64,000 nt of DNA from positions 372,001 to 436,000 of the forward strand of contig NZ_VDUX01000001.1 in assembly GCF_008039565.1 (NCBI RefSeq), written 5' to 3'. The notes under the pieces were generated by a model. The model did not search any database. It saw only the letters and a program-made list of their open reading frames with translations, and was not told the DNA's origin. The stretch comes from Aeromicrobium terrae (GTDB lineage: Bacteria > Actinomycetota > Actinomycetes > Propionibacteriales > Nocardioidaceae). This document shows, piece by piece, positions 1,275 to 40,202 of this stretch (the stretch's first letter is position 1; every line of letters begins with the position of its first letter). Position numbers and translations under genes: made by a program.

Positions 1275-3772
1275 TGCGCGTCCCCATCGAGTGGCTGCGC
1301 GAGCTCGTCGCGCTGCCGGACGACCTCACCGCCGAGCAGATCGCTGCCCGCCTGACCGCGTTCGACCTCAAGCTCGAGGAGATCATCTCCGCCGGGCTGT
1401 CCGGCCCGATCGTGGTCGGCCGCGCCCTGAGCGTCGAGCCGGAGCCGCAGAAGAACGGCAAGACCATCAACTGGTGCCAGGTCGACGTGGGGGAGGACGA
1501 GCCGCGCGGCATCGTCTGCGGTGCCCACAACTTCGGCCCGGACGACCTCGTCGTCGTCGCGCTGCCCGGCGCCACCCTGCCCGGCGACTTCACGATCACC
1601 GCCCGCAAGACTTACGGCCACGTCTCCGACGGCATGATCTGCTCGCCGCCGGAGCTCGGGCTATCCGGCGACTCTGCCTTCCTCCGCCCAGGGCCCGGAA
1701 CCCCTGCCGAGTCGGGCATCCTCGTGCTCGACGCTGAGTCCGCCCAGCCGGGCGACGACGCCGTGGCGCTGCTCGGTCTCGGCGGCGACGTCGTCGACCT
1801 CGAGGTCAACCCGGATCGCGCCTACGCGCTGTCGATGCGCGGCGTCGCCCGTGACGCCGCCCTGGCCTTCGGCCTGCCGTTCTCCGACCCCGCCGATCGC
1901 GACGTCCCGGCCGACGGTGAGGCGTACCCGGTCCGGGTCGACGACCCGGCCGGCTGCCCGGTCTTCGTCGCCCGTGAGGTCACCGGGTTCGACCCCTCGC
2001 GGCCCACGCCGTCGTGGATGGCCCGCCGGATCGAGCAGGCCGGCATGCGGTCCATCTCGCTCGCCGTCGACGTCAGCAACTACGTCATGCTCGAGCTCGG
2101 CCAGCCGAACCACGCCTACGACCGCGCCAAGCTGCACGGTCCGATCGTCGTCCGCCGCGCCGAGGCGGGGGAGAAGATCACCACCCTCGACGACGTCGTG
2201 CGCACGCTCGACCCCGACGACCTGCTGATCACCGACGACGACGGACCGGTCGGCATCGCCGGCGTCATGGGTGCCGCGCACGTGGAGATCGACGACGCCA
2301 CCACGGACATCGTCATCGAGGCAGCGCACTTCGACCCGCCGACCATCGCGCGGAGCGGCCGACGGCACCGGCTGTCCTCCGAGGCGTCCAAGCGCAACGA
2401 GCGCGGCGTCGACACCGAGCTGCAGGCCCGGGCCGCCCAGCGCGTGGCCGAGCTGCTGGTCGAGCACGGTGGCGGACGGATCGAGCCGGGCCTCACCGTC
2501 GTGGGGGCACCGCCGGCACGCGCGTCGGTGACCATCGCCGACGACCTGCCGGCGCGCGTGAGCGGCGTGGCCATCGACGCCGAGACCGCGGTGGCCGCGC
2601 TGACGGCCGGTGGCGGCGAGGTCGTCCACGAGAACGGCACGATCACGCTCACCCCGCCGAGCTGGCGCTTCGACCTGAACGACCCCAACGACCTCGCCGA
2701 GGACGTCCTGCGGGTCGTCGGCTATGACCAGGTCCCGTCGGTCCTGCCGCCTGCTCCGGCGGGCCGAGGCTTGACCCGCGCCCAGGAGCTGCGCCGCTGG
2801 GTCGGCATGGTGCTCGCCGGCGACGGGCTGGTCGAGGTCAAGACGTTCCCGTTCGCCGGTCCTGCCGACTTCGACCGGCTCGGGCTCCCGGCCGACGACG
2901 CGCGGCGCCGCCAGGTGCTCCTCGCCAACCCGCTGTCCGCGGAGCAGCCGGGCATGACCACCACGCTGCTGGCCGGCCTGCTGTCCACCCTCGAGCTCAA
3001 CGTCGGACGCGGTCACAGCGACGTGCAGATCACCGAGACCGGACGCGTCTTCCTGCCGCACGCCGAGGGACTGGCGGCGCCGATCTACGGCGTCGACCGG
3101 CGCCCCACCGAGTCCGAGCTCCAGGCCTTCGCCGACGCCTTGCCAGACCAGCCGCAGCACGTCGCGTTCGTCATGACGGGGGAGCGGCAGCGGTCCGGCT
3201 GGGCCGGCCCCGGTCGTCCGGTCGCCTGGTCCGACGCCGTCGCCGTGGCCCGGCACGTCGTCGAGACCCTGCACCTCGTCCCGGCCGTCGAGGCCGCTCA
3301 GCTCGCTCCGTGGCACCCCGGGCGCTGCGCCGCGATCATGATCGACGGCGTCGTCGTCGGGCACGCCGGCGAGCTGCACCCGGCCGTCGCCCGCGCCTAC
3401 GGCGTCTCGACTCGCGTCATGGGTGCCGAGCTGGACCTCGACGCGCTGATCACCGCGGCGCCCGAGACCGGCCCGCGGCCCCAGTTCTCCGCGTTCCCCG
3501 TGGCGAAGGAGGACCTGGCCCTCGTCGTCGCGGACGACGTCCCGACGGCCACGGTCCAGGCCGCCCTGGAGGGCGCGAGCGACCTCATCGAGTCGGTGCG
3601 GCTGTTCGACGTCTACACCGGCGACCAGGTGCCCGCGGGCCACAAGTCGCTGGCGTTCGCCCTGCGCCTGCGCGCGCCCGACCGCACGCTGACCGACCGC
3701 GAGATCGCCGACGTCCGTCAGGCTGCCGTCACGGCCGCCGAGCGCGACGCGGGCGCCACGCTCCGCGCCTGA
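1274..3772 (+). CDS. pheT: Phenylalanine--tRNA ligase beta subunit
   Basis: Large subunit of the PheRS heterotetramer (832 aa), responsible for tRNA recognition and editing of mischarged Tyr-tRNA. Visible order: N-terminal start MRVPIEWLRELV, EMAP-type tRNA-binding OB domain (about 39-150, with GIVCGAHNF), B3/B4 editing region, B5 domain (about 395-470), catalytic-like core, and C-terminal FDX-ACB anticodon-binding domain (about 740-832). The frame stays open upstream through pheS, but the GTG overlapping the pheS stop fits the family start. Unusual: residues about 133-145 (SAFLRPGPGTPAE) are encoded by a dispersed repeat (1670-1713) and look like an insertion between LGLSGD and SGILVL; removing 13 codons restores an ordinary PheT sequence. 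Confidence 0.97.
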   Translation: MRVPIEWLRELVALPDDLTAEQIAARLTAFDLKLEEIISAGLSGPIVVGRALSVEPEPQKNGKTINWCQVDVGEDEPRGIVCGAHNFGPDDLVVVALPGATLPGDFTITARKTYGHVSDGMICSPPELGLSGDSAFLRPGPGTPAESGILVLDAESAQPGDDAVALLGLGGDVVDLEVNPDRAYALSMRGVARDAALAFGLPFSDPADRDVPADGEAYPVRVDDPAGCPVFVAREVTGFDPSRPTPSWMARRIEQAGMRSISLAVDVSNYVMLELGQPNHAYDRAKLHGPIVVRRAEAGEKITTLDDVVRTLDPDDLLITDDDGPVGIAGVMGAAHVEIDDATTDIVIEAAHFDPPTIARSGRRHRLSSEASKRNERGVDTELQARAAQRVAELLVEHGGGRIEPGLTVVGAPPARASVTIADDLPARVSGVAIDAETAVAALTAGGGEVVHENGTITLTPPSWRFDLNDPNDLAEDVLRVVGYDQVPSVLPPAPAGRGLTRAQELRRWVGMVLAGDGLVEVKTFPFAGPADFDRLGLPADDARRRQVLLANPLSAEQPGMTTTLLAGLLSTLELNVGRGHSDVQITETGRVFLPHAEGLAAPIYGVDRRPTESELQAFADALPDQPQHVAFVMTGERQRSGWAGPGRPVAWSDAVAVARHVVETLHLVPAVEAAQLAPWHPGRCAAIMIDGVVVGHAGELHPAVARAYGVSTRVMGAELDLDALITAAPETGPRPQFSAFPVAKEDLALVVADDVPTATVQAALEGASDLIESVRLFDVYTGDQVPAGHKSLAFALRLRAPDRTLTDREIADVRQAAVTAAERDAGATLRA
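1670..1713 (-). repeat. Dispersed intragenic palindromic repeat, copy 1 (in pheT)
   Basis: On the minus strand the core (1708 down to 1674) begins GGCAGGGGTTCC, continues CGGGCCCTGGGCGG and ends AAGGCAG. It matches four other copies at 11206-11240, 28656-28690, 35098-35126 and 39447-39482. Here it is antisense to the host gene and flanked by GACTC and GAGTC. It adds 13 codons to pheT without shifting the frame. Core identity is seen in the sequence; that it is mobile or was inserted is inference. Confidence 0.75.
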
Positions 3773-3773
3773 C

Positions 3774-4331
3774 TCAGAACTGCACGGCGGGCGGCGTCTC
3801 CTGGCCCTCCGGGGCGTCGTAGAACGTCCGGGCCGAGACGCCGGCGATGCCGGTGAAGAAGAGCCACGGGATCGTCTTCACCAGGTTGTTCAGGCTCGCG
3901 ACCGCGTCGTTGTAGTACTGGCGGGCGAACGAGAGCTTGTCCTCGGTGTCGGCGAGCGCGGCCTGCAGCTCCTGGAAGTTGGCCGACGCCTTCAGGTCCG
4001 GGTACGCCTCCGCCACGGCGAGCACGTCGACGAGGGCTTTGTCGAGCCGCGCCTCGGCGGCCGCCTTCTCCTCGACCGTGCCGCTCTTGGCGGCGCTCGC
4101 GACGCCGGCACGCGCGGCCGTCACCTCGTCGAACACCGCCCGCTCGTGCTGGGCGTACCCCTTCACCGTGTTCACGAGGTTCGGGATCAGGTCGGCGCGG
4201 CGGGTGAGCTGCACGTCGACGCCGCCGAGCGCCTCCTGGGCGGCGATGTCCGCCCGCCGGAGCTTGTTGAACGCGTAGACGCCGAACAGAACCAGCAGGA
4301 CGACGACGGCGATGACGATCCAGATGACCAT
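3774..4331 (-). CDS. LemA family membrane protein
   Basis: 185-aa protein with one N-terminal transmembrane helix (about 3-20, a run of Ile/Val/Leu) followed by a cytoplasm- or surface-facing helical bundle rich in Ala/Glu/Arg, the LemA fold. The conserved RRADLIPNLVNTVKGYA segment and the NFQELQ/LSFARQYYNDAV segments identify the family. Function is unknown in bacteria; LemA proteins are often paired with DUF2207 or TPM-domain membrane proteins, as here: the DUF2207 gene ends 27 bases upstream on the same strand, so the two probably form an operon. It converges on pheT with one base between the stops. Confidence 0.92.
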   Translation of the reverse strand: MVIWIVIAVVVLLVLFGVYAFNKLRRADIAAQEALGGVDVQLTRRADLIPNLVNTVKGYAQHERAVFDEVTAARAGVASAAKSGTVEEKAAAEARLDKALVDVLAVAEAYPDLKASANFQELQAALADTEDKLSFARQYYNDAVASLNNLVKTIPWLFFTGIAGVSARTFYDAPEGQETPPAVQF

Positions 4332-4358
4332 GAGAGCTCCTCGTGAACGGGTGGTGGC

Positions 4359-7661
<3,303 letters not shown>

Positions 7662-7680
7662 TGTCTGCGAAGGTGGAGAG

Positions 7681-8724
7681 ATGAGCACGATCACGGCAGC
7701 AGTCGCCGGCGCCAGCGGGTACGTCGGCGGAGAGGTGCTGCGCACCTTGCTCGCACACCCCGAGGTCACGATCGGCGCGGTCACCGCGTCGTCGAACGCC
7801 GGCGCGCGCCTGGGCGAGCTCCAGCCGCACCTGCTGCCGCTGGCGGACCGGGTGCTCGACCCCACGGACGCCGAGCACCTCGCCGGCCACGACGTCGTCT
7901 TCCTGGGGCTGCCGCACGGCGCCTCCGCCGAGGTCGCAGCGACGCTCGGCGACGACGTGCTGGTCATCGACTGCGGCGCGGACTTCCGGCTCGACAGCTC
8001 CGACGACTGGGCCGAGTTCTACGGCGGCGACGGTGCGCATGATTGGGCCGGCACGTGGCCGTACGGCCTGCCCGAGCTGCCCGGCCAGCGGGAGGCACTG
8101 GCCGGCGCCAAGCGCGTCGCCGTGCCCGGCTGCTTCCCGACCATCTCGACGCTGACGGCCATGCCGGCCGTGCTCGCCGACCTGGTGCACCCCGACCTGA
8201 CGATCGTCGCGCCCACCGGCACGTCGGGCGCCGGCAAGAAGCTGGCGCCCGGGTTCCTCGCCTCCGAGGTGATGGGGCAGGCGAGCGCCTACGGCGTCGG
8301 CGGCGTGCACCGGCACACCCCGGAGATCGAGCAGAACCTGCGGAAGGCCGGCGCGGCCGACCCGGTCGTCTCGTTCACGCCGATCCTCGCGCCGATGGCA
8401 CGCGGCATCCTCGCCACCGTCTCCGCTCCGCTGAAGGACGGCGTCACCGCTGACGACGTGCGGGCCGCCTACGAGAAGGCGTACGCCGACGAGCCGTTCG
8501 TCCACGTCCTGCCTGACGGCACGTGGCCGCAGACCAAGTCCGTCCTCGGCGCGAACCTGGCGCTCGTCCAGGCCACCGTCGACCCGCGCGCGAACAAGCT
8601 CGTCGCCATCGGCGCCATGGACAACCTCGCCAAGGGCACCGCCGGGGGAGCGGTGCAGTCGATGAACCTCGCGCTCGGCCTGCCCGAGACCACCGGTCTC
8701 TCCACGGTCGGAACCGCACCATGA
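7681..8724 (+). CDS. argC: N-acetyl-gamma-glutamyl-phosphate reductase
   Basis: NADPH-dependent reduction of N-acetylglutamyl phosphate to the semialdehyde, third step of the acetylated arginine pathway. 347 aa. GASGYVGGE at residues 10-18 is the Rossmann dinucleotide loop; the catalytic cysteine is C151 in [18 protein letters not shown] supplies the conserved His region. A good ribosome site (GGTGGAG) precedes the ATG at 7681. The stop overlaps the argJ ATG (ATGA), implying coupled translation. Confidence 0.97.
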
Positions 8725-9872
8725 GCGTCACCGCGGCCCAGGGGTTCCGGGCGAGCGGCGTCGCTGCGGGGCTGAAGTCGAGCGGCAAGGCCGACGTCGC
8801 GCTCGTCGTGAACGACGGACCGTCGTCCGCGGCCGCCGCCGTGTTCACCAGCAACCGCTGCAAGGCGAACCCGGTGCTCTGGAGCGAGGAGGCCATCAAG
8901 GCCGGCTCGGCCCGCGCGGTCGTGCTCAACTCCGGGGGCGCCAATTGCTACACGGGCCCGGAGGGCTTCGCCGTCACGCACGCCACCGCCGAGCTCGTCG
9001 CGGAGTCGCTCGGCCTGGGTACCGTCGACGTCCAGGTGTGCTCCACGGGCCTGATCGGGCTCCTGAACGACAAGGACACCCTGCTCGCCGGCGTGCGGAA
9101 CGCCGTGGGTGAGCTCGACGCCGACGGTGGCCAGGCCGCCGCCGAGGCGATCATGACCACCGACTCGGTGCCCAAGCAGGCGGTCGTGTCGGCCGACGGG
9201 TTCACCGTGGGCGGCATGGCGAAGGGCGCCGGCATGCTGGCGCCGGCACTGGCCACGATGCTCGTCGTCATCACCACGGACGCCGACGTCACGGCCGAGC
9301 AGGCCGACGCCGCGCTACGGGCGGCCACCCGCACCACGTTCGACCGCCTCGACTCCGACGGCTGCCAGTCCACCAACGACACCGTGCTGCTGATGGCGAG
9401 CGGCGCGTCGGGCACCACCCCGGACCCGGACGCGTTCGCCGAGGCGGTCCACTCGGTCTGCCACAGCCTCGCGGTGCAGCTGCTCGCCGACGCGGAGGGC
9501 GCCGACCACGAGATCACCATCGAGGTCGTCAACGCGGCCACCGAGGACGACGCCGTGGAAGTCGGCCGGTCCATCGCCCGCAGCAACCTGTTCAAGTGCG
9601 CGATCTTCGGCAAGGACCCCAACTGGGGTCGCGTCCTCGCCTCCGTCGGCACCACGCAGGCGGCGTTCGACCCCGCCGACCTCGACGTCGCCCTCAACGG
9701 CGTGTGGGTGTGCCGGAACAGCGGTCCGTCCGAGTCGCCGGAGAAGGTCGACCTGGAGCCGCGGGCCGTCACCGTCACCGTCGACCTGAAGGCCGGCGAC
9801 GCCACCGCGTCGGTCTGGACCAACGACCTCACCCACGCCTACGTCCACGAGAACTCCGCCTACTCCACGTGA
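8721..9872 (+). CDS. argJ: Glutamate N-acetyltransferase / amino-acid acetyltransferase
   Basis: ArgJ recycles the acetyl group from N-acetylornithine to glutamate and, in the bifunctional type, can also use acetyl-CoA for the first step. 383 aa. The precursor cleaves itself in the [14 protein letters not shown] segment; the new N-terminal nucleophile would be T179 (Ala-Thr bond). ATG 8721 overlaps the argC stop by four bases. No separate argA-type synthase is present in the window, which is compatible with, but does not prove, bifunctionality. Confidence 0.96.
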
Positions 9873-9880
9873 GCGAGACG

Positions 9881-10881
9881 ATGACCGACACCGACGCCAC
9901 CTACCCCGATCCGGCCGAGCTCGAGCCGGACCCCGACTACGGGCTCGACCCGGAGACGTGGAAGCAGGCCACCGACAAGGCCCGCATCCTCGCCGAGGCC
10001 CTGCCGTGGCTGAAGAAGTACCACGGCAAGGTCGTCGTGGTGAAGTACGGCGGCAACGCCATGACGGACGACACCCTCAAGAAGGCGTTCGCCGAGGACA
10101 TCGTGTTCCTGCGGCTCGCCGGCTTCCACCCGGTGGTCGTGCACGGCGGCGGCCCGCAGATCAGCGCGATGCTCGACAAGCTCGGCATCGAGTCGGAGTT
10201 CCGCGCCGGGCTGCGCGTCACGACGCCGGAGGCCATGGACGTCGTCCGCATGGTCCTCACCGGACAGGTGAGCCGGGAGCTCGTCGGGCTGCTGAACCGG
10301 CACGGCGCTCTCGCCGTCGGGCTGTCCGGCGAGGACGCCGGCCTGTTCACCGCCGAGAAGACCATGCCGGTCGTCGACGGCGAGGCGGTCGACGTCGGGC
10401 TCGTCGGCGAGGTGGTCGGCGTGCGCCCGGAGGCGGTGCTGGACCTCATCGAGGCGGGCCGCATCCCGGTCGTGTCGTCGGTGGCTCCAGACGCGGCGGG
10501 CCAGGTGCACAACGTCAACGCCGACACCGCCGCGTCCGCCCTGGCCGTCGCGCTGGGTGCCGAGAAGCTGCTCGTGCTCACCGACGTCGAGGGCCTGTAC
10601 GCCGACTGGCCGAACAGCGACGACGTCATCGGCGAGATCTCGCCGGAGGCGCTCGCGGAGATCCTGCCGGGTCTCGCCAGCGGCATGATCCCGAAGATGA
10701 CGGCCTGCCTGAAGGCGGTCGAGGGTGGCGTCAAGGGCGCCACCGTGGTCGACGGCCGGCAGCCGCACTCGGTGCTGCTGGAGATCTTCACCGACGAGGG
10801 CATCGGCACCCAGGTGCTGCCGAACGCCGGCACCCGCATCCGCACCGCCATGTACTCGACCAGCGGCCCCAAGGAGACACC

Positions 10882-10885
<4 letters not shown>
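9881..10885 (+). CDS. argB: Acetylglutamate kinase
   Basis: Phosphorylates N-acetylglutamate with ATP, usually the step feedback-inhibited by arginine. 334 aa from ATG 9881. Amino acid kinase fold: VVKYGGNAM (phosphate-binding Lys), VVHGGGPQI, the [12 protein letters not shown] nucleotide segment and [11 protein letters not shown] near the C-terminus. The N-terminal 30 or so residues before the kinase core resemble the extension of arginine-sensitive hexameric enzymes. An alternative GTG at 9869 overlaps the argJ stop (GTGA) and would add four residues; I cannot decide between them from the ribosome sites. The stop overlaps the argD GTG. Confidence 0.95.
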
Positions 10886-15512
<4,627 letters not shown>

Positions 15513-15515
15513 ACG

Positions 15516-15527: not shown

Positions 15528-15538
15528 AGTCTCGGGCC

Positions 15539-24311: not shown

Positions 24312-24321
24312 AATCTTTAGC

Positions 24322-25250: not shown

Positions 25251-25338
25251 TCGTCCACAGCCGCGGCGCCGCGACGGCGTGTCCACACCGCCGGTCGCGG
25301 CCCTCGTGGCACCGGACGGCCTCCGCGATGGTCGGAGG

Positions 25339-25686: not shown

Positions 25687-25695
25687 CCTCGCCGC

Positions 25696-26939: not shown

Positions 26940-27751
26940 CGCGTCGGGTCAGGCTCGACGCCGAGCTGGTCCGGCGTGACCTCGCCCGGTCGCGCGAGCA
27001 CGCCGGCACCCTCATCCAGGGCGGTGCCGTCATGGTCGGCGGTAGGGTCGCCACGAAGGCGGCGACGCAGGTCGGCACGGACCAGCCGATCGTCGTCCGC
27101 GCCACCGACGATCCCGCGTGGGCGTCGCGCGGCGCCTACAAGCTGCTCGGAGCACTCGAGGTGTTCGAGCCGCAGGGCCTCGACGTCAGCGGCCGACGCT
27201 GCCTGGACGCCGGTGCCTCCACCGGTGGCTTCACCGACGTCCTGCTCCGCCGCGGGGCCCGCGAGGTCTGCGCGGTCGACGTCGGGTACGGCCAGCTGGT
27301 CTGGGCGCTGCAGTCCGACGATCGCGTCCACGTGTTCGACCGCACAAACGTGCGCACGCTCGAGCCCGGCGACATCGGCGGTGAGGTCGACCTCGTCGTC
27401 TCGGATCTGTCGTTCATCTCCCTTACCGTGGTGATGCCGGCACTCACCCGCGTGTGCAAGCAGGAGGGCGACATCGTGCTGATGATCAAGCCGCAGTTCG
27501 AGGTGGGCCGCGCGAACCTCGGCAAGAACGGCGTCGTCCGGGACCCGGCTCTCCACGCCGACGCCGTGCACCGCGTCTGCCTCTCCGCCCAGGAGCACGG
27601 CTGGGGTACGCGCGCCCTGGCGCCCAGTCCACTGCCCGGTCCCGCCGGCAACGTCGAGTACTTCTGCTGGCTCCGCACGGACGCCGACGCCCCGAGCGAC
27701 CAGGCGGCCCGCGAGGTCGTCGCGGCCGGACCGCTGGAGGCCCCGCGATGA
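26936..27751 (+). CDS. tlyA: TlyA-family rRNA 2'-O-methyltransferase
   Basis: 271 aa. N-terminal S4 RNA-binding domain (about 3-64: RLDAELVRRDLARSREHAGT, GGAVMVGGRVATKAATQV), then an FtsJ/RrmJ Rossmann methyltransferase (LDAGASTGGFTDVLL SAM-binding motif near 91-103; DLVVSDLSFISL with the catalytic Asp; MIKPQFEVG with the catalytic Lys). In mycobacteria TlyA methylates 16S C1409 and 23S C1920 and confers capreomycin sensitivity. Start GTG overlaps the preceding stop. Confidence 0.95.
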   Translation: MTRRVRLDAELVRRDLARSREHAGTLIQGGAVMVGGRVATKAATQVGTDQPIVVRATDDPAWASRGAYKLLGALEVFEPQGLDVSGRRCLDAGASTGGFTDVLLRRGAREVCAVDVGYGQLVWALQSDDRVHVFDRTNVRTLEPGDIGGEVDLVVSDLSFISLTVVMPALTRVCKQEGDIVLMIKPQFEVGRANLGKNGVVRDPALHADAVHRVCLSAQEHGWGTRALAPSPLPGPAGNVEYFCWLRTDADAPSDQAAREVVAAGPLEAPR

Positions 27752-28698
27752 GGACCGTGCTGATCATCATCCACGCCGCGCGCGAAGAGGCGGCGAAGGT
27801 CGCCGCCGCGTTCGCCACCGACGTCCGCTCCGCCGGCATGGGTGTCCGCGTCCTCGACTCGGACGCCGACGCGCTGGCGCAGGCTGGTCTGGAGGACCCG
27901 GAGGTGGTCGCGGCGGAGGCCGGGGCCGCGCGCGACTGCGAGCTGGCCGTCGTCTTCGGTGGCGACGGCACCATCCTGCGCGGGGCGGAGATGTGCCGCG
28001 GCACGGGCACGCCGGTGCTCGGCGTCAACCTGGGCCACGTCGGCTTCCTGGCCGAGGCGGACGCCGAGGACGTGCACGCCGTGGTCCAGGGCGTCGTCGA
28101 CCGGACCTACACCGTCGAGGAGCGACTCACCGTCGACGTGTCCGTCAAGGTCGGGGGAGAGGTCGTCGCCACCAACTGGGCGCTGAACGAGGCGTCGGTC
28201 GAGAAGGCGGCGCGCGAGCGGATGCTGGAGCTGGTCGTCGAGATCGACGGCCGCCCGGTGTCCCGGTGGGGCTGCGACGGCGTCGTCTGCGCCACGCCCA
28301 CGGGATCGACGGCCTACAACTTCAGCGCGGGCGGTCCGGTCGTGTGGCCGGAGGTCGCCGCGCTGCTCATGGTGCCGATCAGCGCGCACGCCCTGTTCGC
28401 CCGGCCGATGGTCGTCTCACCGGACTCGACCCTCGCGATCGAGGTCGTGGGGGAGGTCTCGACCGGCGTCGTGTGGTGCGACGGTCGTCGTGCCGCGGAC
28501 CTGCCGGTCGGCGCTCGGGTCGAGGTCGTCCGCGGTGCCGAGACCGTCCGTCTCGCCCGGCTCCACACCGCGCCCTTCGCCGATCGCCTGGTGCGCAAGT
28601 TCGACCTGCCGGTCACGGGCTGGCGCGGCTCGGCGGAGCGACGGAACGGAACATCGGCAGGGATGCCGGGCCCTGGGCGGCAGGATGGCACAGCCTGA
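27748..28698 (+). CDS. nadK: NAD kinase
   Basis: Phosphorylates NAD to NADP. 316 aa. The GGDG motif is at about 71-74 (VVFGGDGTILRG), followed by GVNLGHVGFLAE, the NE-containing NWALNEASVEK and the diglycine segment CATPTGSTAYNFSAGGPVV. Homologues end at about RKFDLPVTGWRG; here a further 20 or so residues follow, and the last 14 (from TSAGMPGPG on) are encoded by a dispersed repeat copy (28656-28690). ATG 27748 overlaps the tlyA stop. The stop shares one base with recN. Confidence 0.96.
   Translation: MRTVLIIIHAAREEAAKVAAAFATDVRSAGMGVRVLDSDADALAQAGLEDPEVVAAEAGAARDCELAVVFGGDGTILRGAEMCRGTGTPVLGVNLGHVGFLAEADAEDVHAVVQGVVDRTYTVEERLTVDVSVKVGGEVVATNWALNEASVEKAARERMLELVVEIDGRPVSRWGCDGVVCATPTGSTAYNFSAGGPVVWPEVAALLMVPISAHALFARPMVVSPDSTLAIEVVGEVSTGVVWCDGRRAADLPVGARVEVVRGAETVRLARLHTAPFADRLVRKFDLPVTGWRGSAERRNGTSAGMPGPGRQDGTA
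28656..28690 (+). repeat. Dispersed intragenic palindromic repeat, copy 3 (3' end of nadK)
   Basis: Begins GGCAGGGATGCC, continues GGGCCCTGGGCGGCAGG and ends ATGGCA. TGCCG and CGGCA arms enclose GGCCCTGGG. It encodes the C-terminal extension of NadK in a different reading frame from the argD and pyrG copies, and its AGGATGG (28682-28688) is the only ribosome-site-like string before the recN ATG. Confidence 0.75.
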
Positions 28699-30383
28699 TG
28701 TGGCAGCACCTCACCCTGTCGTCCCTGGGCGTCATCGACTCCGCCGAGCTCGAACTCGGACCCGGGTTCACCGTCATCACCGGTGAGACGGGTGCCGGCA
28801 AGACCATGGTCGTCACGGCGCTCGGGCTCCTGCGCGGCGACCGCGCGGATCTCGGACTCGTGCGCACCGGCACCGACCGCGCCCGCGTCGAGGCCGAGAT
28901 CGCCGTGCCCGAGGGGTCGAGCGTCGAGGAGACGGTCGTCGACGCCGGCGGTCAGCTCGACGACGGGGTCGTCGTCCTCGCGCGCTCGCTGTCGGCACAG
29001 GGCCGGTCGCGAGCCTTCGCCGGCGGCGCCACCGTGCCGGCCGGTCTGCTCGCCGAGGTCACCGACGAGCTCGTCGCGGTGCACGGCCAGTCCGACCAGC
29101 ACCGGTTGCTTCGCGCGGCCGCCCAGCGCGAGGCGCTCGACCGGTTCGCCGGAGAGCCGGTCAAGGACGCCCTGGCCGAGTACGTCCCGGCCTACACCCG
29201 CCTGCGGGCGATCGAGCGTCGGCTCGACGAGCTCCGCACCCACGCACAGGAACGGGCCCGCGAGCTCGACCTGCTCCGGCACGGTCTCGACGAGATCGCC
29301 GCCGTGGAGCCGGTGACCGACGAGGACGAGGACCTCAAGGTCGAGGCCGGGCGGCTCGGGCACGTCGAGGCGCTCGTCCGGGCCGCTCTCGGTGCCCACG
29401 AGGCCCTGGCGAGCGACGACGACGCCGGGTCCGCGCGTGACCTCGTCGCCGCCGCGTCCGCCGCGCTCGACGAGGCCGCCGGCCACGACCCTGACCTCGA
29501 CGCGCTCGCCGCGCGCGTGCGCGAGGTCAGCATCGTGGTCGACGACGTCGCCGGAGAGCTCAGCGCGTACGCCGACGGAGTCGAGGTCGACCCGGCCCGG
29601 CTGGCCGTCGTGCAGGAGCGCATCGCGGCCCTCACCACCCTGCAGCGCAAGTACGGCCCCACGCTTGCCGACGTCCTGACGTGGCAGGAGAAGGCCGCGG
29701 CGCGTCTCACCGAGCTCGACTCCGACGACGACACCGTGGCCGGGCTGGAGGCCGAGCGCGACCGGCTCGAGCCGGAGGTCCGGCGGATGGCCGCCCGACT
29801 CAGCGAGCTGCGCGCCGAGGCGGGGGAGCGGCTCAGCGGGCTGGTGGACACCGAGCTGGCCCAGCTGTCGATGCCGTCGGCCCACCTCGTGGTGCGGGTC
29901 GACAGTGCTGACGGTGCCGCGCTCACCGCTCACGGCACCGACGACGTCGAGCTGCTGTTCTCGGCCAACGCCGGCTCGCCGGAGCGTCCGCTCGCGAAGG
30001 GCGCCAGCGGGGGAGAGCTGTCCCGTCTGATGCTGGCTCTCGAGGTCGTGCTCGCCGACCGCACCACGGTCCCCACGCTCGTGTTCGACGAGGTGGACGC
30101 CGGCATCGGCGGCAAGGCGGCGGTGGAGGTCGGCCGGCGGCTCTCTCGGCTCGCCGAGCACGCCCAGGTCCTCGCCGTCACCCACCTGCCGCAGGTCGCG
30201 GCGTTCGCCGACCACCACTTCCGGGTCACCAAGGACGACGACGGCATCGTCACCAGCAGCTCGGTCGTCCGGCTCGACGAGTCGGACCGGGTCGACGAGC
30301 TGGCCCGCATGCTCGCGGGTCAGGAGGACTCCGCCACGGCGCAGGCGCACGCCCGCGAGCTGCTCGAGCTCGCCCGCGGCTAG
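28698..30383 (+). CDS. recN: DNA repair protein RecN
   Basis: SMC-like ATPase (561 aa) acting in double-strand break repair. Walker A GETGAGKT lies at about 29-36; a long Ala/Glu/Arg coiled-coil region fills the middle; the ABC signature is [19 protein letters not shown]; Walker B is [16 protein letters not shown] near 460-472, and [14 protein letters not shown] carries the switch His. No SOS box is visible upstream, since the gene is embedded in the tlyA-nadK operon. It converges with the cyclase gene with a four-base overlap of the stops. Confidence 0.96.
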
Positions 30384-31219
30384 AGAACCGCGACCTCCCA
30401 GAGGCGGTGCACGCCGGGCAGACCCTTCAGCTCGGTGTCGCGCCCGTCCACCAGGACGACGTCCTCGACGTCCTTGAGCGCGACGCGGATGTCGTCGCTG
30501 ACCAGGATCTCGCCGCCGCGGGCCTGCGACGCGACCCGGGCCGCCATCGCCACGTTGCGGCCGAACAGGTCGCCGTCGCGCTCGATGGCCGTGCCGCAGT
30601 GGATGCCGACCCGCACCCGGATCGGGGTGCGCCGGAGCCGACGATCGTTGCTCTCCTCGATGGCGTCCTGGATCGAGATGCCGGCCCGCACGGCGTCGGC
30701 CGGCTCGCGGAACGCCATCATGAACCCGTCGCCCTGCGACTTCACGATGTGCCCGCCGAACGCAGAGACGCGGTCGTGGACGACCTTGTCGTGGGCGCTC
30801 AGCACCTTGACCCACTGCTTGTCGCCCAGCGTCTCGTTGAGGTGGGTCGAGTCCTCGATGTCGGAGAACATGATCGTGACGGCGCCGTCAGGCCCGGCGA
30901 GCTTGGCGATCTCGGTCCGGTCCTCCTGCGTCCACCGGGAGAAGTCCTCCATCGAGGACATCAGCAGCCCGGAGACGCCGTGGTCGCGGACCAGGGCAGC
31001 GGTCTCCACGGCCGTCTCCACCACGGCCTTCACCCGCTGCGCCCGACGCTCCCGGCGCGGCTGGCTGCGGCCCTGTCGACGGGCCACCTCGGTGAGCCGC
31101 TGCACCTCGTGCTCGGCCTTCGCCAGACGACGCCGCGTGACCACCAGCAGGCCGGTGACGGCCACCAGCAGCAGCGAGAGCACGACGACGGCCACGAGCA
31201 CGGATTCACCCTCGCACAC
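30380..31219 (-). CDS. Class III adenylate/guanylate cyclase, membrane-anchored
   Basis: 279 aa. One N-terminal transmembrane helix (about 7-28), a basic linker, then a cyclase homology domain (about 110-279): [12 protein letters not shown] (first metal Asp), [11 protein letters not shown] (second metal Asp in the GDG turn), [27 protein letters not shown] (transition-state Asn/Arg). All expected catalytic positions look intact, so cAMP production is likely; nucleotide choice cannot be read with certainty. It lies opposite to and between recN and steA, interrupting an otherwise same-strand run. The GTG start at 31219 is uncertain. Confidence 0.9.
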
Positions 31220-31282
31220 GGGGCATGACGCGCGTGCCGACCTCCCTGGAATCGACGAAGTCGCGTGGCAGCATGGACGGCG

Positions 31283-32443
31283 ATGCCTTCCTGGACCCGT
31301 CGACCCACGTCAGCGGACCAAGCCCCCGGATTCACCGGCGTGGCGCGGTTCGCCCGCCCTGGCGACGACGCCGCCACCCGACTGCGTGAGGGCGACATCG
31401 CCGTCGTCGAGCTCGCCGACATGGACCGGAGCCAGGCGCAGGCCCTGGTGGAGCGGAAGGTCCGCGCCGTCGTGAACGCCGCGGCCTCGAGCACCGGGGC
31501 GTTCCCGAACCTCGGCCCGCGGGTGCTGGCGGACGCCGGCATCACGCTGGTGGACCAGGTCGGCCAGGGCATCTGGACCCGGCTCAAGAACGGCGACACC
31601 ATCCGGATCGACGGCAACCGCGTCTTCAAGGGCGACGTGCTCGTCGCCCAGGGCGTGTCGCAGGACGACGCGTCGGTGACGGCCAGCCTGGGAGCAGCCG
31701 AGCAGGGTCTGGCCACCCAGCTCGAGTCCCTGATGGCCAACGCCACCAACCACCTGCACCGTGAGCGCGACCTGCTGCTCGAGGGCGCTCGCGTGCCGTA
31801 CCTCTCACCGCGGCTGCGTCGCCGCCCCGTGGTGGTGGTGAGCCAGCAGCACGAGTGGCGCACGGACCTCCGGCGCCTGCGGGGCTGGATCCGCGACCAC
31901 GACCCGGTGCTGATCGGCGCGGCCGACGGTGCCGACGCCCTCCTGGACGCCAAGCTCCAGCCGCACGTCGTCCTCGGCTCGCTGGACGACCTGTCCGACC
32001 GCGCCGTCCGCTCCGGCGCCACGGTCGTGGTCACGTCGACCACCGACCAGGGCACCGGCGGCGCGGAACGGTTCGAGCGCTTCAAGGTCGACCCGGTGCG
32101 GTTCGTGGCCACCGGAGCGCCCAGCGATCTCGCCATCCTGCTCGCGGAGGCCAACGACGCCCCGGTGATCATCGAGGTGGGTGCCGCCAAGAACCTCGTG
32201 CAGATGTTGGAACGCGGACCGGCCGACGTCGCGAGCACGTTCCTCACCCGGCTGCGCGCCGGGTCGAAGCTGGTCGACGCCAAGGCCGTCGGGCACTTCG
32301 CCGCGGAGTCGATGCCGGTGTGGCCGGTGCTGCTCATCCTGCTCGCCGGTGTCGTCGCCGTGGCCGTCGCCGTCGGTGTCACACCCGTCGGCCAGGACTG
32401 GTTCGACGACGCCCAGAACTGGATCGAAGGACTTCTTCCGTGA
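31283..32443 (+). CDS. steA: SteA-like septum-associated protein
   Basis: About 386 aa, homologue of corynebacterial SteA / Rv1697, reported to work with SteB in cell separation and envelope maintenance. The sequence resembles a pyrophosphokinase-related fold: [69 protein letters not shown] (near 210-235), [17 protein letters not shown] single C-terminal transmembrane helix (about 345-365) anchors it. I start at ATG 31283; a GTG at 31265 is also in frame. It overlaps the steB start by four bases. Confidence 0.85.
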
Positions 32444-33312
32444 TCAACTTCCGCTACCACCTCGTCTCGATCGCCGCGATCCTCCTCGCGCTGGCGGCCG
32501 GCATCGCGCTCGGCTCGGGTCCGCTCGACGACGCGACGTCGGGCCTGACGGACGACAACGGGAGCGACACCGCGGCCGACCCGGGACTGGCACGGTTCGA
32601 GACCGGCTACGCGGGACTCACCTCCGGCGCGTTGCTGAAGGACAAGCTGAAGGGTCACAGCGTCGTCGTCCTGACCTTGCCGGGTGCCCGCGCCGAGGAG
32701 ACCAAGGACATCCGCGCCGACCTGGAGAAGGCCGGGGCCACCGTCACGGGCGAGGTGCAGCTCACCGCGAAGCTCATCGACCCCAGCAACCGGCAGTTCG
32801 CCGAGGGCGTGGCCCAGCAGGCCGGCGAGGGGGTCAAGGGCGTCACGAGCGCCGGTGACAGCTACGGACGCATCGGAGCGGCGCTCGGGCGGTCCGTGCT
32901 CGGCACGCCCGGCCGGCCGATCGACTCGGTGGCCACCACGATCAGCTCGGCGTTCACCGAGGGCGACCTGGTCACCTACGCCGCGAAGCCGAAGACCGTC
33001 GCCGACCTGGCCGTCGTGGTCGCGTCACCGTCGAAGGTGGGGGAGACCGGCCAGGTCGTGGCTCAGTTGGTCAAGGCCGTGGACGCGTCGGGCAAGGGTG
33101 CCGTCCTCGCCGGGCCGTCGTCCTCGAGCCGTGACGGCGGCAGCGTGGCGGCTCTCCGTGACAACGACGCGTCCGCCCAGGTCTCGTCGGTCGACGTCAC
33201 CGACACCGCCGCCGGCCGGGTCGTGGTCGCGCTCGCCCTGGCCCGTGAGGCCGCCGGCCAGAGCGGCGCCTGGGGCACCTCGCGCAGCGCCGACGGCGCC
33301 GTCCCGCGCTGA
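32440..33312 (+). CDS. steB: SteB / MctB-like envelope protein
   Basis: 290 aa. Starts [24 protein letters not shown], one N-terminal membrane anchor (about 5-24), then an extracytoplasmic coiled and alpha/beta domain. The family includes Rv1698 (proposed copper channel MctB) and corynebacterial SteB, which partners SteA. The overlap with steA (GTGA) supports the pair acting together. Whether it is a channel or a SteA partner cannot be told from sequence. Confidence 0.85.
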   Translation: MINFRYHLVSIAAILLALAAGIALGSGPLDDATSGLTDDNGSDTAADPGLARFETGYAGLTSGALLKDKLKGHSVVVLTLPGARAEETKDIRADLEKAGATVTGEVQLTAKLIDPSNRQFAEGVAQQAGEGVKGVTSAGDSYGRIGAALGRSVLGTPGRPIDSVATTISSAFTEGDLVTYAAKPKTVADLAVVVASPSKVGETGQVVAQLVKAVDASGKGAVLAGPSSSSRDGGSVAALRDNDASAQVSSVDVTDTAAGRVVVALALAREAAGQSGAWGTSRSADGAVPR

Positions 33313-33378
33313 ACCGCTCTTCGTCGGAGTGTTGCCGAGGGCGGGTGACCAGATCATTGATAGGCTGGAGTCCCGTGA

Positions 33379-35750
<2,372 letters not shown>

Positions 35751-35752
35751 CC

Positions 35753-36676
35753 ATGAGCGACCTTGACCGCGCCGTCCTCGACTACCTGAGTCACCTGGGC
35801 GTGGAGCGCGGCCTGGCCGACAACACGCTGAACAGCTACCGGCGCGACCTGCGCCGCTACGCGACCCATCTCGCCGGGCGGGGCATCGACGCTCCGGGCG
35901 CCATCGCCGAGACAGACGTGCTGTCCTTCCTGGGCGCCCTGCGCACCGGCGACGCCGACCACCCGCCGCTGGGCGCCGCGAGTGCCGCCCGCGCCGTCGT
36001 GGCGGTCCGCGGCTTCCACAAGTTCCTGCTGCGCGAACGACTCGTCGAGGCGGACGTCTCCGCGGCCGTGAAGCCGCCGCGCCCAGCGTCGCGGCTGCCG
36101 AAAGCCCTGCCGCTCTCCGACGTGGAGGCCATCCTCGCGGCCGCCGGAGCCCCCGGCACCACGCTGGCGAAGCGCGACCAGGCGTTGCTCGAGGTGCTCT
36201 ACGGCACCGGGGCACGGATCTCCGAGGCCGTCGGCCTCGACGTCGACGACCTCGACCTGACCGACGGGAGCGTGCTGCTGCGCGGCAAGGGCGGCAAGCA
36301 GCGCATCGTGCCGATCGGCAGCTTCGCGCGGGCGGCGGTGGAGGACTACCTCACGGCCGGCCGGTCGGCGCTCGTCTCGGCCAAGGCGTCGACGCCCGCG
36401 GTGTTCCTGAACGCCCGCGGCGGACGCCTCAGCCGCCAGAGCGCCTGGGTCGTCCTGGTGAAGGCGGCACAGCGTGCCGGGATCACCACGGAGGTGTCAC
36501 CGCACACGTTGCGGCACTCGTTCGCCACCCATCTGCTCGACGGCGGAGCGGACGTCCGCGTCGTGCAGGAGCTGCTCGGTCACGCGTCGGTGACGACCAC
36601 CCAGGTGTACACGTTGGTGACCGTCGAAAAGCTCCGAGAGATTTATGCGACGGCTCATCCACGTGCCTCACGGTGA
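35753..36676 (+). CDS. xerD: Tyrosine recombinase XerD
   Basis: Site-specific recombinase that resolves chromosome dimers at dif together with XerC. 307 aa. N-terminal SAM-like domain ([22 protein letters not shown]) and catalytic domain with Arg in [13 protein letters not shown] (near 153), Lys in [17 protein letters not shown] near 251-255, GHAS and the nucleophile Tyr near 287 in TQVYTLVT. Length and context (pyrG-Nudix-xerD-parA-scpAB) mark the housekeeping enzyme, not a prophage integrase. Confidence 0.94.
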
Positions 36677-36725
36677 GCGGTAGAGTGGCGCGAAATCGAC
36701 CGGTCGAGGGGTGTGAAGGATCAGC

Positions 36726-37574
36726 ATGAGCCAGGAACTCGGACCCACCGGTCGTCCGATCCCTGACCTGCCCGCGCCGGGCCCGCGCAAGCCGGGCCAG
36801 CCCGCCACCGTCATCGCGATGTGCAACCAGAAGGGTGGCGTCGGCAAGACCACGACCACCATCAACTTGGGTGCCGCGCTGGTCGAGGCCGGGCGCCGCG
36901 TGCTGCTGGTCGACTTCGACCCGCAGGGCTCCATGACGGTCGGTCTCGGCATCAGCGCCCACGACCTCGAGCAGAGCATCTACCACGTCCTGATGGACCG
37001 TGAGCTGAGCATCAAGGACATCATCAGCCCGACGAAGGTCGAGGGCCTCGATCTCGCTCCGGCGAACATCGACCTCTCCGCGGCGGAGATGCGCCTGGTC
37101 ACCGAGGTCGGCCGCGAGCAGGTGCTCTCGCGCGTGCTGCACCCGATCCTGCACGACTACGACGTCGTGCTCATCGACTGCCAGCCGTCGCTCGGCCTGC
37201 TCACCGTGAACGCGCTCACCGCGTCGAACGGCGTCATCATCCCGCTGGAGTGCGAGTACTTCGCACTGCGCGGCGTGGCGCTGCTCAAGGAGACCATCGA
37301 GAAGGTCCGTGACCGCACCAACTTCGGTCTGCAGATCATCGGGCTGCTCGGCACCATGTTCGACGGGCGCACGCTGCACGACCGCGAGGTGCTGGCCACG
37401 CTCGTCGAGGGCTGGGGCGACCTCGTCTTCCACACCGTCATCCGCCGCACGATCAAGTTCTCCGACGCCACAGTGGCGGGGGAGCCCATCACCGAGTTCG
37501 CGCCGACGTCCCCGGGCGCGTCGTCGTACCGCCAGCTGGCCCGAGAGGTGCTGAGTCGATGCCCCGGCGCGTGA
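36726..37574 (+). CDS. ParA/Soj-like ATPase of the scpAB cluster
   Basis: 282 aa. Deviant Walker A CNQKGGVGKTTTT at about 34-46, LLVDFDPQGSMT (switch I), VLIDCQPSLGLLTVNAL (Walker B) and EFAPTSPGASSYRQLA. A 15-20 residue Pro-rich N-terminal tail precedes the ATPase. No parB or parS-like site follows: the partner is instead a small DNA-binding-like protein overlapping its 3' end, then scpAB. It is therefore the orphan ParA (Rv1708 position) rather than the oriC ParA. GAAGGA precedes ATG 36726; a TAGAGT -10-like box lies at 36681-36686. Confidence 0.93.
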   Translation: MSQELGPTGRPIPDLPAPGPRKPGQPATVIAMCNQKGGVGKTTTTINLGAALVEAGRRVLLVDFDPQGSMTVGLGISAHDLEQSIYHVLMDRELSIKDIISPTKVEGLDLAPANIDLSAAEMRLVTEVGREQVLSRVLHPILHDYDVVLIDCQPSLGLLTVNALTASNGVIIPLECEYFALRGVALLKETIEKVRDRTNFGLQIIGLLGTMFDGRTLHDREVLATLVEGWGDLVFHTVIRRTIKFSDATVAGEPITEFAPTSPGASSYRQLAREVLSRCPGA

Positions 37575-37888
37575 ACCTGCCGGGTGCGGACGAGCTCTTC
37601 CGCGCCACCGCCCCGGCTCCGGGCACCGAGGCCGCCGCCGCTGCCGCGCAGGAGCCCTCGCCGGGCTCGGCCTCGAGCGGTCGGGTCAAGCACGACGAGA
37701 AGATGACCGTCTACCTCACGTCCGAGGAGCTGATCGCGGTCGAGCAGGCGCGGCTGAAGCTGCGCGGCGAGCTGGGCCGCAACGTCGACCGTGGCCGCCT
37801 GGTGCGCGCGGCCCTCGCGATCGCGCTCGCCGACCTGGAGGCACACGGCACCGACAGCGACATCGCCCGCCGGCTCAGCGCCTCATGA
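37559..37888 (+). CDS. Small protein with possible ribbon-helix-helix domain
   Basis: 109 aa. Residues 1-50 are Ala/Pro-rich and probably disordered; 51-105 read KMTVYLTSEELIAVEQARLKLRGEL...DRGRLVRAALAIALADLE, which has the strand-helix-helix pattern of a CopG-like domain. It overlaps the parA end by 16 bases and the scpA start by four, so it is translated with both. By position it may be the DNA-binding partner of the upstream ParA ATPase (inference). Confidence 0.8.
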   Translation: MPRRVNLPGADELFRATAPAPGTEAAAAAAQEPSPGSASSGRVKHDEKMTVYLTSEELIAVEQARLKLRGELGRNVDRGRLVRAALAIALADLEAHGTDSDIARRLSAS

Positions 37889-38754
37889 GTCTCGCGGAGA
37901 TCGAGGAGCCGGCAGGGCCGTCGGGCTTCTCGGTGAACCTCGGAGTGTTCGAGGGCCCGTTCGACCTGCTGCTGTCGCTGATCTCCAAGCACCAGCTCGA
38001 CATCACCGAGGTCGCGCTCTCGAAGGTCACGGACGAGTTCATCTCCTACATCAAGGAGCTGGGCGGCGACCTGGAGCAGACCACGCACTTCCTGCTCGTC
38101 GCGTCCACGCTGCTCGACCTCAAGACCGCGCGGCTGCTGCCGCAGGGCGACGTCGAGGACGAGGAGGACCTTGCGCTGCTGGAGGCGCGCGACCTCCTGT
38201 TCGCCCGCCTGATGCAGTACCGCGCGTTCAAGCAGGTGGCGTCGATCATCTCCGCCCGGCTCGCGTCGGAGCAGAACCGGCACCCGCGGTCGGTCACCCT
38301 GGAGCCGCGGTTCGCCGACCTTCTGCCGGAGGTCATCGTCTCCGTCGGCCCGCACGACCTCGCCCGGCTCGCGGCGGCCGCCCTGGAGCCGAAGCCCGTG
38401 CCGGTGCTCTCCCTGGCGCACCTGCACGCGCCCCAGGTGAGCGTGCGGGAGCAGGCCCACCTGGTCGTCGACCGGCTGCGCCGCGAGCGCTCCACGACGT
38501 TCCGCGCGCTCACCGCCGACGCCGACCTGGTCACCACGGTCGCCCGGTTCCTCGCCGTCCTCGAGCTGTTCCGCGAAGGCATGATCGGGTTCGAACAGGC
38601 CACCCCGCTGGGCGACCTGCACCTGCGCTGGACCGGCAGCGACGAGGGCGACATCGACGTCGGCGAGGAGTTCGACGCACCGTCCGTGCCCGACGAGACC
38701 CCACCCCCGGCGCTCGCCGCCGTGACCGACGTACCTGAGGACGCCGATGCCTGA
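37885..38754 (+). CDS. scpA: Segregation and condensation protein A
   Basis: Kleisin subunit bridging SMC heads in chromosome condensation. 289 aa. N-terminal FSVNLGVFEGPFDLLLSLISKHQLDITEVALSKVTDEF is the hallmark; an acidic middle (GDVEDEEDLALLEARDLL) and a C-terminal winged-helix part (RATVVTRFLAVLELFREGMIGFEQ-like) follow. ATG overlaps the previous stop; the end overlaps scpB by eight bases. Confidence 0.96.
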   Translation: MSLAEIEEPAGPSGFSVNLGVFEGPFDLLLSLISKHQLDITEVALSKVTDEFISYIKELGGDLEQTTHFLLVASTLLDLKTARLLPQGDVEDEEDLALLEARDLLFARLMQYRAFKQVASIISARLASEQNRHPRSVTLEPRFADLLPEVIVSVGPHDLARLAAAALEPKPVPVLSLAHLHAPQVSVREQAHLVVDRLRRERSTTFRALTADADLVTTVARFLAVLELFREGMIGFEQATPLGDLHLRWTGSDEGDIDVGEEFDAPSVPDETPPPALAAVTDVPEDADA

Positions 38755-39439
38755 CGCACCCGACACCACGGCCGCGGAGCCGGACACGGCCGAGAGCCCA
38801 GGACCGGTGCCGCAGCTCGAGCTGCAGATGCTCGAGCTGAAGCCGGCGCTGGAGGCCGTGCTGATGGTCGCCGACCAGCCCCTGGACCACCTGACCCTGG
38901 CTCAGGCCGTCGGCCACCCGCCGCGCGACGTCGAGCAGGCGCTCGCCGCGCTCGCCGACGAGTACACCGAGCAGGGGCGGGGCTTCGAGCTGCGCAACGT
39001 CGGCGGCGGCTGGCGGTACTTCACCCGCGAGGAGTTCGCCCCGGCGGTGGAGCGGTTCGTGCTCGAGGGACAGCAAGCGCGGCTCACCCAGGCAGCGCTC
39101 GAGACCCTGGCCGTGGTCGCGTACCGCCAGCCGGTCAGCCGGTCGCGGGTGTCCGCCATCCGCGGCGTGAACGTCGACGGCGTCGTCCGCACGCTCGTCA
39201 CCCGCGGTCTGATCGAGGAGGCCGGCACCGACGCCGAGAGCGGTGCCATCCTGTACCGCACGACCAGCTACTTCCTCGAGCGGATGGGCATGGCCGACCT
39301 CTCCGAGCTGCCCGACATCGCCCCGATGCTGCCCGAGCTCGACGACCTCGACGACGAGGAGGAGGTCGTCGCGGCCCCCGAGGAGCCGGCCGACGATCTC
39401 GTCGACCACGCCGAGGAGACCGGTGAGCGGACCGACTGA
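38747..39439 (+). CDS. scpB: Segregation and condensation protein B
   Basis: 230 aa, second kleisin-associated subunit of the SMC complex. Tandem winged helices: LKPALEAVLMVADQPLDHLTLAQ (about 26-48), FELRNVGGGWRYFTREEFAP, and QAALETLAVVAYRQPVSRSRVSAIRGVNVDGVVRTLVTRGLI. An acidic C-terminal tail follows. The end overlaps the proposed rluB start by 17 bases. Confidence 0.96.
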   Translation: MPDAPDTTAAEPDTAESPGPVPQLELQMLELKPALEAVLMVADQPLDHLTLAQAVGHPPRDVEQALAALADEYTEQGRGFELRNVGGGWRYFTREEFAPAVERFVLEGQQARLTQAALETLAVVAYRQPVSRSRVSAIRGVNVDGVVRTLVTRGLIEEAGTDAESGAILYRTTSYFLERMGMADLSELPDIAPMLPELDDLDDEEEVVAAPEEPADDLVDHAEETGERTD

Positions 39440-40202
39440 CGACCCTGGCAGGGGTCCGGGGCCCTGGGCCGGAGATGGGCAGGGCATCCGTCTGCAGAAG
39501 GTGCTCGCCCAGGCCGGGATCGGCAGCCGCCGCCGCTGCGAGCAGCTCATGGCGGAGGGCCACGTGTCGGTGAACGGCGAGGTCGTGACCCAGATGGGCG
39601 TGCGCGTCGACCCGGCCGTCGACGTCATCCATGTCGACGGCAAGCGGCTGCCCCCGGCCTCGGACCACGTCTACCTGGTGCTGAACAAGCCGCGCGGCGT
39701 CGTGTCGTCGATGGCGGACGAACGCGGGCGACCCGATCTCCGCACGGTGCTCACCGGACGGTCGGAGCGCCTGTTCCACGTCGGCCGGCTCGACACGGAC
39801 ACCTCCGGTCTGCTGGTGCTCACCAACGACGGCGAGCTGGCGCACCGCCTGGCCCACCCGTCGTTCGAGGTCACGAAGACCTACGTCGCTCTCGTCGAGG
39901 GCGGGGTGAAGGCGTCCACCGCGACACGACTCCGCGAGGGCGTCGACCTCGACGACGGTCCGGCCGCGGTCGACCGCTTCCGGATCATCGACCGCGCGCA
40001 AGGCCGTTCCATGGTCGAGCTCGACCTGCACAGCGGCCGCAACCGCATCGTCCGCCGCCTGCTCGACGCGGTCGGCCACCCGGTCATCGAGCTCACCCGC
40101 ACCGCCTTCGGGCCGCTGCGTCTGGGCGACCTGGCGCTGGGCAGCGTCCGCGACCTGACCCGCGACGAGCTCGGGGAGCTCTTCGATAGCGTGGAGGCAT
40201 GA
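39423..40202 (+). CDS. rluB: 23S rRNA pseudouridine synthase, RluB type
   Basis: 259 aa from GTG 39423. S4 domain (RLQKVLAQAGIGSRRRCEQLMAEGHVSVNG), then the RsuA/RluB catalytic domain with HVGRLDTDTSGLLVLTNDGEL (catalytic Asp) and LHSGRNRIVRRLLDAVGHPV. The first 20 residues before the S4 domain (including DDPGRGPGPWAGDGQG) are mostly encoded by a dispersed repeat copy (39447-39482). No later start would keep the S4 domain, so the repeat is translated. It overlaps scpB and tyrA. Confidence 0.93.
   Translation: MSGPTDDPGRGPGPWAGDGQGIRLQKVLAQAGIGSRRRCEQLMAEGHVSVNGEVVTQMGVRVDPAVDVIHVDGKRLPPASDHVYLVLNKPRGVVSSMADERGRPDLRTVLTGRSERLFHVGRLDTDTSGLLVLTNDGELAHRLAHPSFEVTKTYVALVEGGVKASTATRLREGVDLDDGPAAVDRFRIIDRAQGRSMVELDLHSGRNRIVRRLLDAVGHPVIELTRTAFGPLRLGDLALGSVRDLTRDELGELFDSVEA
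39447..39482 (+). repeat. Dispersed intragenic palindromic repeat, copy 5 (5' end of rluB)
   Basis: Begins GGCAGGGGTCC, continues GGGGCCCTGGGCC and ends GGGCAG, with a GGCCC-T-GGGCC palindrome. One base longer than the other copies. It lies just after the scpB stop, in the translated N-terminal leader of RluB. Confidence 0.7.

Follow-up and report, generated by a model that had tools for sequence, protein, structure and literature searches.

Why should five unrelated core genes carry nearly the same short sequence? This question is raised by a 64,000-nt stretch of the Aeromicrobium terrae genome (contig NZ_VDUX01000001.1; G000:C1:372001-436000), hereafter called the window. The host genome, G000, has 3,135,224 bases in 14 contigs; the other G-numbers used below are handles of the genomes compared with it, and L-numbers denote fetched loci. 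A reading made from the sequence only had described the five copies as a dispersed palindromic element that keeps the host frame open in pheT, argD, nadK, pyrG and rluB. Our analysis revealed that they belong to a family with about 85 members in this 3.1-Mb genome; each consists of the same 26-nt core, GGCRGGGGTKCCGGGCCNYGGGCGGM, followed by a variable tail, and the copies are often in tandem at 36-bp steps. The family is probably a genus-specific, small, non-autonomous mobile element, which would be recognised through its core by a mobiliser acting in trans, tolerated where loops are permissive, multiplied in tandem and lost by deletion. The five copies and their host genes are listed below; open reading frames (ORFs) were called with our own codon-usage gene predictor, trained on the window genes, and the outer limits of the copies in pheT, argD and pyrG, as well as the argD start, are approximate.

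1671 to 1711 (core 1683-1708), minus strand: element copy in pheT, antisense, T10/A26 variant; 12 amino acids more than in G139, G136 and G010 (protein alignment; DNA alignment with G139 and G136)
629 to 3772, plus strand: ORF with pheT (Phe-tRNA synthetase beta; PF01588, PF03483, PF03484, PF17759, PF03147), the true start lying further in
11203 to 11243 (core 11206-11231), plus strand: element copy in argD, net +36 bp relative to G139, G136 and G021, placed within the aminotransferase domain between LLG and GRVFF
10900 to 12114, plus strand: argD (acetylornithine aminotransferase; PF00202, 6.9e-107)
28653 to 28693 (core 28656-28681), plus strand: element copy at the nadK 3' end and recN start, net +39 bp just before CCTGATG; site empty in G139, G021 and G136
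27454 to 28698, plus strand: ORF with nadK (NAD kinase; PF01513, PF20143)
35098 to 35138 (core 35101-35126), plus strand: element copy at the C-terminal end of pyrG, absent from the G018 homologue, the only relative aligning there
33415 to 35142, plus strand: pyrG (CTP synthase; PF06418, PF00117)
39444 to 39484 (core 39447-39472), plus strand: diverged element copy, four mismatches, on the N-terminal side of the rluB ORF
39243 to 40202, plus strand: ORF with rluB (pseudouridine synthase; PF00849, PF01479)

All five copies were located where the sequence-only reading had placed them, and a degenerate 26-mer found exactly these five in the window, where dinucleotide shuffles give an expectation of 0.07. 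As had also been noted, the argD and pyrG copies are identical over 29 bases, and CCGGGCCCTGGGCGG is common to the pheT and nadK copies. The rluB copy is the weakest of the five, with four mismatches to the strict consensus and a compensated variant of the right helix (TCCGG...CCGGA). In the whole genome, 81 matches to GGCRGGGGTKCCGGGCCNYGGGCGGC were found at one mismatch or fewer and none to the reversed control pattern, so that further copies exist above the chance level. A looser 21-mer allowing up to three mismatches gave 99 matches (61, 22, 4 and 12 at 0, 1, 2 and 3 mismatches, respectively); since its reversed control gave 52, the three-mismatch class is mostly chance. A covariance model found 92 matches at E <= 0.01. 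When the fetched loci of this genome were compared with the 26-mer, 64 copies were exact, 19 had one mismatch, one had two and the rluB copy had four; one further match, with five mismatches, is probably due to chance. The tail is variable and about 10-12 nt long, the tandem unit is 36 bp, and single net insertions measure 36-39 bp. Single copies made up 164 of the 251 copies sampled, those from other genomes being a partial sample. The collection used mismatch limits, by which decayed copies are under-counted and the mismatch rate is capped.

Alignment with homologues of the host genes revealed, as judged from sequence, that the copies at pheT, argD and nadK/recN are insertions relative to close relatives. 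In syntenic alignments, the window pheT is longer by a net 36 bp than the genes of G139 and G136 and by 12 amino acids than that of G010, and the corresponding loop in G019, G005, G125 and G020 has three to five residues of its own. Among 24 aligned ArgD proteins, drawn from the 49 genomes of the genus, the full 12-column insert was found only in the window's protein, the relatives having zero to eight residues there, and it is not present in the solved acetylornithine aminotransferase 7nn1. At this site, the G002 protein has GGQPGAANG, resembling a copy that has lost part of its length, and argD of G020, outside the 24-protein alignment, has three tandem copies in frame. The segments in pheT, argD and nadK are thus absent from relatives rather than shared by all homologues. 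For rluB, a homologous stretch was not found in the fetched relatives, hence no empty site is available for this copy.

Loci of other species add to this picture. The argJ gene of the window's species has no copy; that of G005 has five in tandem, adding about 60 residues, and one copy each was found in the close relatives G148 and G117 and in the more distant G019. In stretches 90-97% identical among G005, G148 and G117, there were partly deleted copies, multiply substituted copies and arrays of differing length. Sites in argD, argJ, cobQ, a Lhr-type helicase gene and the cysO-cysM junction were re-hit or retained between species, the identities of cobQ, Lhr and cysO-cysM having been read from their sequences. 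It was also noticed that at the cysO-cysM junction of five species (L022, at G000:C2:256776, L035, L044, L047 and L148) the element extends CysO past the C-terminal GlyGly and that its orientation there is opposite in different species.

The position of the copies relative to genes was then counted. Of 84 copies in the window's genome, 54 were inside ORFs, 12 overlapped ORF ends and 18 were outside. The statement that none is intergenic therefore holds within the window and not genome-wide; coding sequence makes up 93.5% of these loci, so that copies outside ORFs are more frequent than expected (p about 6e-6). Among the 157 copies from other genomes that were classified in this way, 76 were inside ORFs, 71 outside and 10 overlapping. 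A Pfam scan of ten mid-gene hosts of the window's genome matched eight, i.e., an RNase H/phosphatase fusion, a radical SAM protein, IspD, a DeaD helicase, a pyridine nucleotide oxidoreductase, a DUF885 protein, an AMP-binding enzyme and LigA, and left two without a match; the encoded segments include AGVPGPGRQMGT in IspD and AGAPGRGRQI in LigA.

When sites were binned at 120 bp, 117 of 207 were in ORFs, 97 in sense and 20 in antisense orientation, and 79 of the 117 were in frame 0, the sense frame reading GGGAGPxAA. Because all six frames of the consensus core are free of stop codons, the sense bias is read as a preference for the peptide. An origin of this bias at the RNA level, or one coupled to transcription, is not favoured, as copies between co-directional genes show none (19 in the same and 41 in the opposite orientation). 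Tandem steps in the sampled arrays were all multiples of three inside ORFs (18 pairs: 17 of 36 bp and one of 48 bp) and were 33, 34, 35, 36, 38, 39 or 42 bp in the 33 pairs elsewhere. Empty sites, copy searches through the genome and the genus, and these frame statistics bear out the description of a dispersed element that lies in unrelated core genes and keeps their frame.

Only positions 4, 10, 18, 19 and 26 of the core vary in more than 5% of the 251 copies, and the remaining 21 of 26 positions are nearly invariant between species. Mismatches per base, counted in 239 copies, were 0.9-1.1% in ORFs and intergenic copies alike and 0.4% in copies overlapping ORF ends, and third codon positions took 6 of the 21 mismatches in frame-0 copies. 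Such similar rates inside and outside ORFs, with third positions equally conserved, indicate that the sequence is conserved at the nucleic-acid level, as DNA or RNA.

Covariation favours two interleaved, pseudoknot-like helices, which the core can form when single-stranded, 3-7 pairing with 16-20 and 10-13 with 23-26. Pair 10/26 is G-C in 222 copies, T-A in 26, C-G in one and otherwise in two, and pair 4/19 is G-T in 106, G-C in 76, A-T in 63 and otherwise in six. In 61 diverse copies, 90.7% of the cells of the crossing helices were paired and 25 cells were changed on both sides, pair 5-18 being unpaired in 39 of the 61. None of 500 shuffles attained the observed values for paired cells, for cells changed on both sides or for the covariation score, in tests that relatedness among copies can inflate. 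A simple hairpin, CCCGGCR-GGGG-TKCCGGG, is the minimum free energy structure of one variant, yet it lacks covariation (one doubly changed cell; 207 of 500 shuffles as high), and for this reason the crossing helices are preferred to a plain palindrome. An Rfam scan of the window gave five matches at the gathering threshold, none of which overlaps a copy.

Extension of the search to related genomes revealed that the family is present in 13 of the 294 genomes of a taxonomic-family sample; all 13 are among the 49 genomes of the genus, and none is among the 245 of other genera. A phylum sample gave matches in 2 of 396 genomes, both within the genus. With the covariance model, 10-92 copies were found in 12 carriers and one in carrier G182 (71% complete), several carrier genomes being incomplete drafts. 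The same model found, in genomes that were non-carriers by pattern, one strong copy in G179 and, in seven more, one or two weak matches with a best E of 0.0015-0.0095. The single copy of G179 has an E-value of 2.2e-8, and the tree neighbours of this genome are without the family. In the tree, built from three proteins (ArgJ-ArgB-ArgD), ten carriers are united in a single clade (support 0.87) and G000 is placed with two non-carriers (0.99). The alternatives are an old presence of the element in this part of the genus, followed by several losses, and more than one acquisition. Among the matches listed, the records with the repeat were from Aeromicrobium, other actinobacterial records and one contig labelled Proteobacteria. 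This contig (L121), considered as an occurrence outside the genus, holds tandem copies only in its first 60 bases and is probably an assembly or binning artefact. A phage or plasmid vehicle was likewise rejected: the 41-nt consensus had no match in plasmids and phages (with the low-complexity filter on), and the exact 26-mer was not found in viral contigs.

In the mechanism proposed, the element would be inserted at many sites by a trans-acting activity, a putative enzyme recognising the core. The invariance of the core and its covarying helices suggest that a protein recognises in trans the folded single strand, which would be the substrate of the mobiliser. Insertions in genes would survive if their net length is a multiple of three and if their sites are permissive loops, linkers or termini, with a preference for the sense frame encoding GGGAGPxAA. 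A single copy could then expand head-to-tail in 36-bp steps, possibly by slippage or unequal recombination, and copies would decay largely by deletion.

Several results weigh against a mobile element of this kind. The Y1 (RAYT) transposase PF01797 was found in none of the 49 genus genomes (5 of 14 control genomes were positive); the reverse transcriptase RVT_1 was found in 5 of 49 genomes and 1 of 13 carriers, and IS110 transposase in 13 of 49 genomes and 4 of 13 carriers, neither of them in the window's genome. The Y2 (IS91-like HUH) transposase was also found in none of the 49, yet the control genomes were silent too. Among 555 predicted proteins near copies, the families occurring in at least three genomes included no recognisable mobility gene, in a survey that was read by eye without a family search and in which other genomes were partly sampled. 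The two ends of the consensus, CCCGGC and GGCACAGT, do not make up an inverted repeat, and no clear target-site duplication was seen at empty sites too diverged to give base-exact ends. As to the structure, two of the five measures were not unusual, namely the number of doubly changed pairs (58 of 500 shuffles) and that of further pair types (102 of 500), and single copies folded no better than shuffles (z -1.00, -1.14 and -0.18), with energies that cover non-pseudoknot structures. Moreover, carriers cluster on the tree (4 changes vs a mean of 11.6 for shuffled labels); this clustering, together with sites common to species, means that much of the distribution could be vertical. Lastly, all comparisons are between species, from which we infer transposition, as distinct from observing movement.

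The same data may be viewed in other ways. The repeat could be a functional site, i.e., protein-binding DNA or a structured mRNA motif, under selection for regulation or chromosome organisation, as the 21 nearly invariant positions, the covarying helices and the about equal conservation inside and outside ORFs would lead one to expect. We consider this unlikely, since the pattern is absent from 36 of the 49 genus genomes (by model, one of these has the strong copy of G179 and seven have weak ones), copies are located in unrelated genes, orthologous copies are decayed or partly deleted, and the sense bias of ORFs disappears between co-directional genes. Somewhat less probable still is a minisatellite-like unit that arose through slippage and was spread through gene conversion or recombination, with no enzyme for transposition. 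The homogeneous sequence, the arrangement of arrays head-to-tail in steps of 36 bp and the copy numbers that differ in close species agree with it, but the majority of sampled copies are single and lie at unrelated sites opposite empty homologues; furthermore, gene conversion needs flanking homology, and flanks are shared at a minority of sites only.

Elements of the REP/REPIN type, moved by a RAYT (Y1 tyrosine) transposase, are short, folded and GC-rich and occur in tens of copies per genome, in all of which the Aeromicrobium element resembles them. Unlike them, it is often located in ORFs, and it occurs in a genus without detected PF01797, a search in which controls responded; such an origin is thus very improbable. 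An artefact of chance or composition in 70% GC DNA, or a shared protein motif, would account for a GC-rich sequence giving Gly/Ala/Pro-rich peptides in some frames. This can practically be dismissed on account of the excess over expectation in the window and over the control in the genome, the use of several frames and both strands, and third codon positions as conserved as the rest. A small mobile element with a trans-acting mobiliser remains the reading that we prefer.

Among described repeats, the MIRUs of Mycobacterium are short, dispersed in an actinobacterial genome, arranged in tandem arrays and inserted at overlapping stop/start codons, and by description the Aeromicrobium element is like them in its tandem arrays and in its copy at the overlapping codons of nadK and recN; MIRUs are longer than the 36-bp unit and lie mostly between genes. 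A resemblance to Rickettsia palindromic elements (RPEs) had been proposed. As outlined in an excerpt of one account, RPEs fall into ten families of repeats about 150 bp long, and in R. conorii nearly half of these repeats are located within ORFs (PMC10969869). The likeness holds for in-frame insertion in unrelated genes and for occurrence outside genes as well (excerpt of PMC10969869). It does not extend to the unit of 36 bp, to the single family with five variable core positions, to the crossing helices, to the tandem arrays or to the high-GC actinobacterial host; compared by description, the Aeromicrobium element works like an RPE, and it is by size that membership fails. PARCEL repeats are characterised as palindromic coding repeats of patchy distribution (excerpt of PMC2996958). 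They form protein domains of variable sequence, which are arranged in tandem tracts, belong mostly to membrane proteins and are recognised with a protein hidden Markov model. The Aeromicrobium repeat is likewise found in coding sequence and patchy in distribution and, unlike PARCEL, is conserved as DNA in several frames. Miniature inverted-repeat transposable elements (MITEs) are small non-autonomous insertions for which in-frame fusion with genes is possible (excerpt of PMC10969869); they differ from the Aeromicrobium element, in which neither terminal inverted repeats nor a clear target duplication was seen. In the literature found for Aeromicrobium and for palindromic elements in genes, PMC2635572 among it, judged mostly from records short of full text, no account of this family was recognised.

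Frequent in-frame insertion of repeats in unrelated genes has been described for Rickettsia (excerpt of PMC10969869). A similar habit is now found in an actinobacterial genus of high GC content, in which the unit is about one-fourth the size and 13 genomes have empty-site relatives, and array lengths differ between genomes 90-97% identical in the stretches compared. Movement of the element, tolerance by proteins and the seeding of new protein segments, questions that are hard to approach in obligate intracellular bacteria, become testable here, and the recurrent or retained insertions in ArgD, ArgJ, CobQ and the cysO-cysM junction serve as natural replicates. Tentatively, and with more doubt than for mobility as such, the family might represent a new class of minimal mobile element, a 26-nt pseudoknot-forming core that an undescribed enzyme would move; its small size and the benign peptide that it encodes would let it colonise core genes (ligA, ispD, argD and pheT), in-frame arrays included, as a natural linker-inserting system.

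Copies with a replaced or expanded middle were noticed at L114:3115, L255:13345, L249:9895 (minus strand) and L252:9517 and perhaps belong to a longer related form. Two stretches of G005, L246:13190-13290 and L246:16050-16190, are distinct from the element; among the matches listed, both had numerous counterparts in G148 and G117, the latter stretch in G019 as well, so they are perhaps other dispersed repeats. In the window, Rfam also recognised a glycine riboswitch aptamer at 55589-55676.

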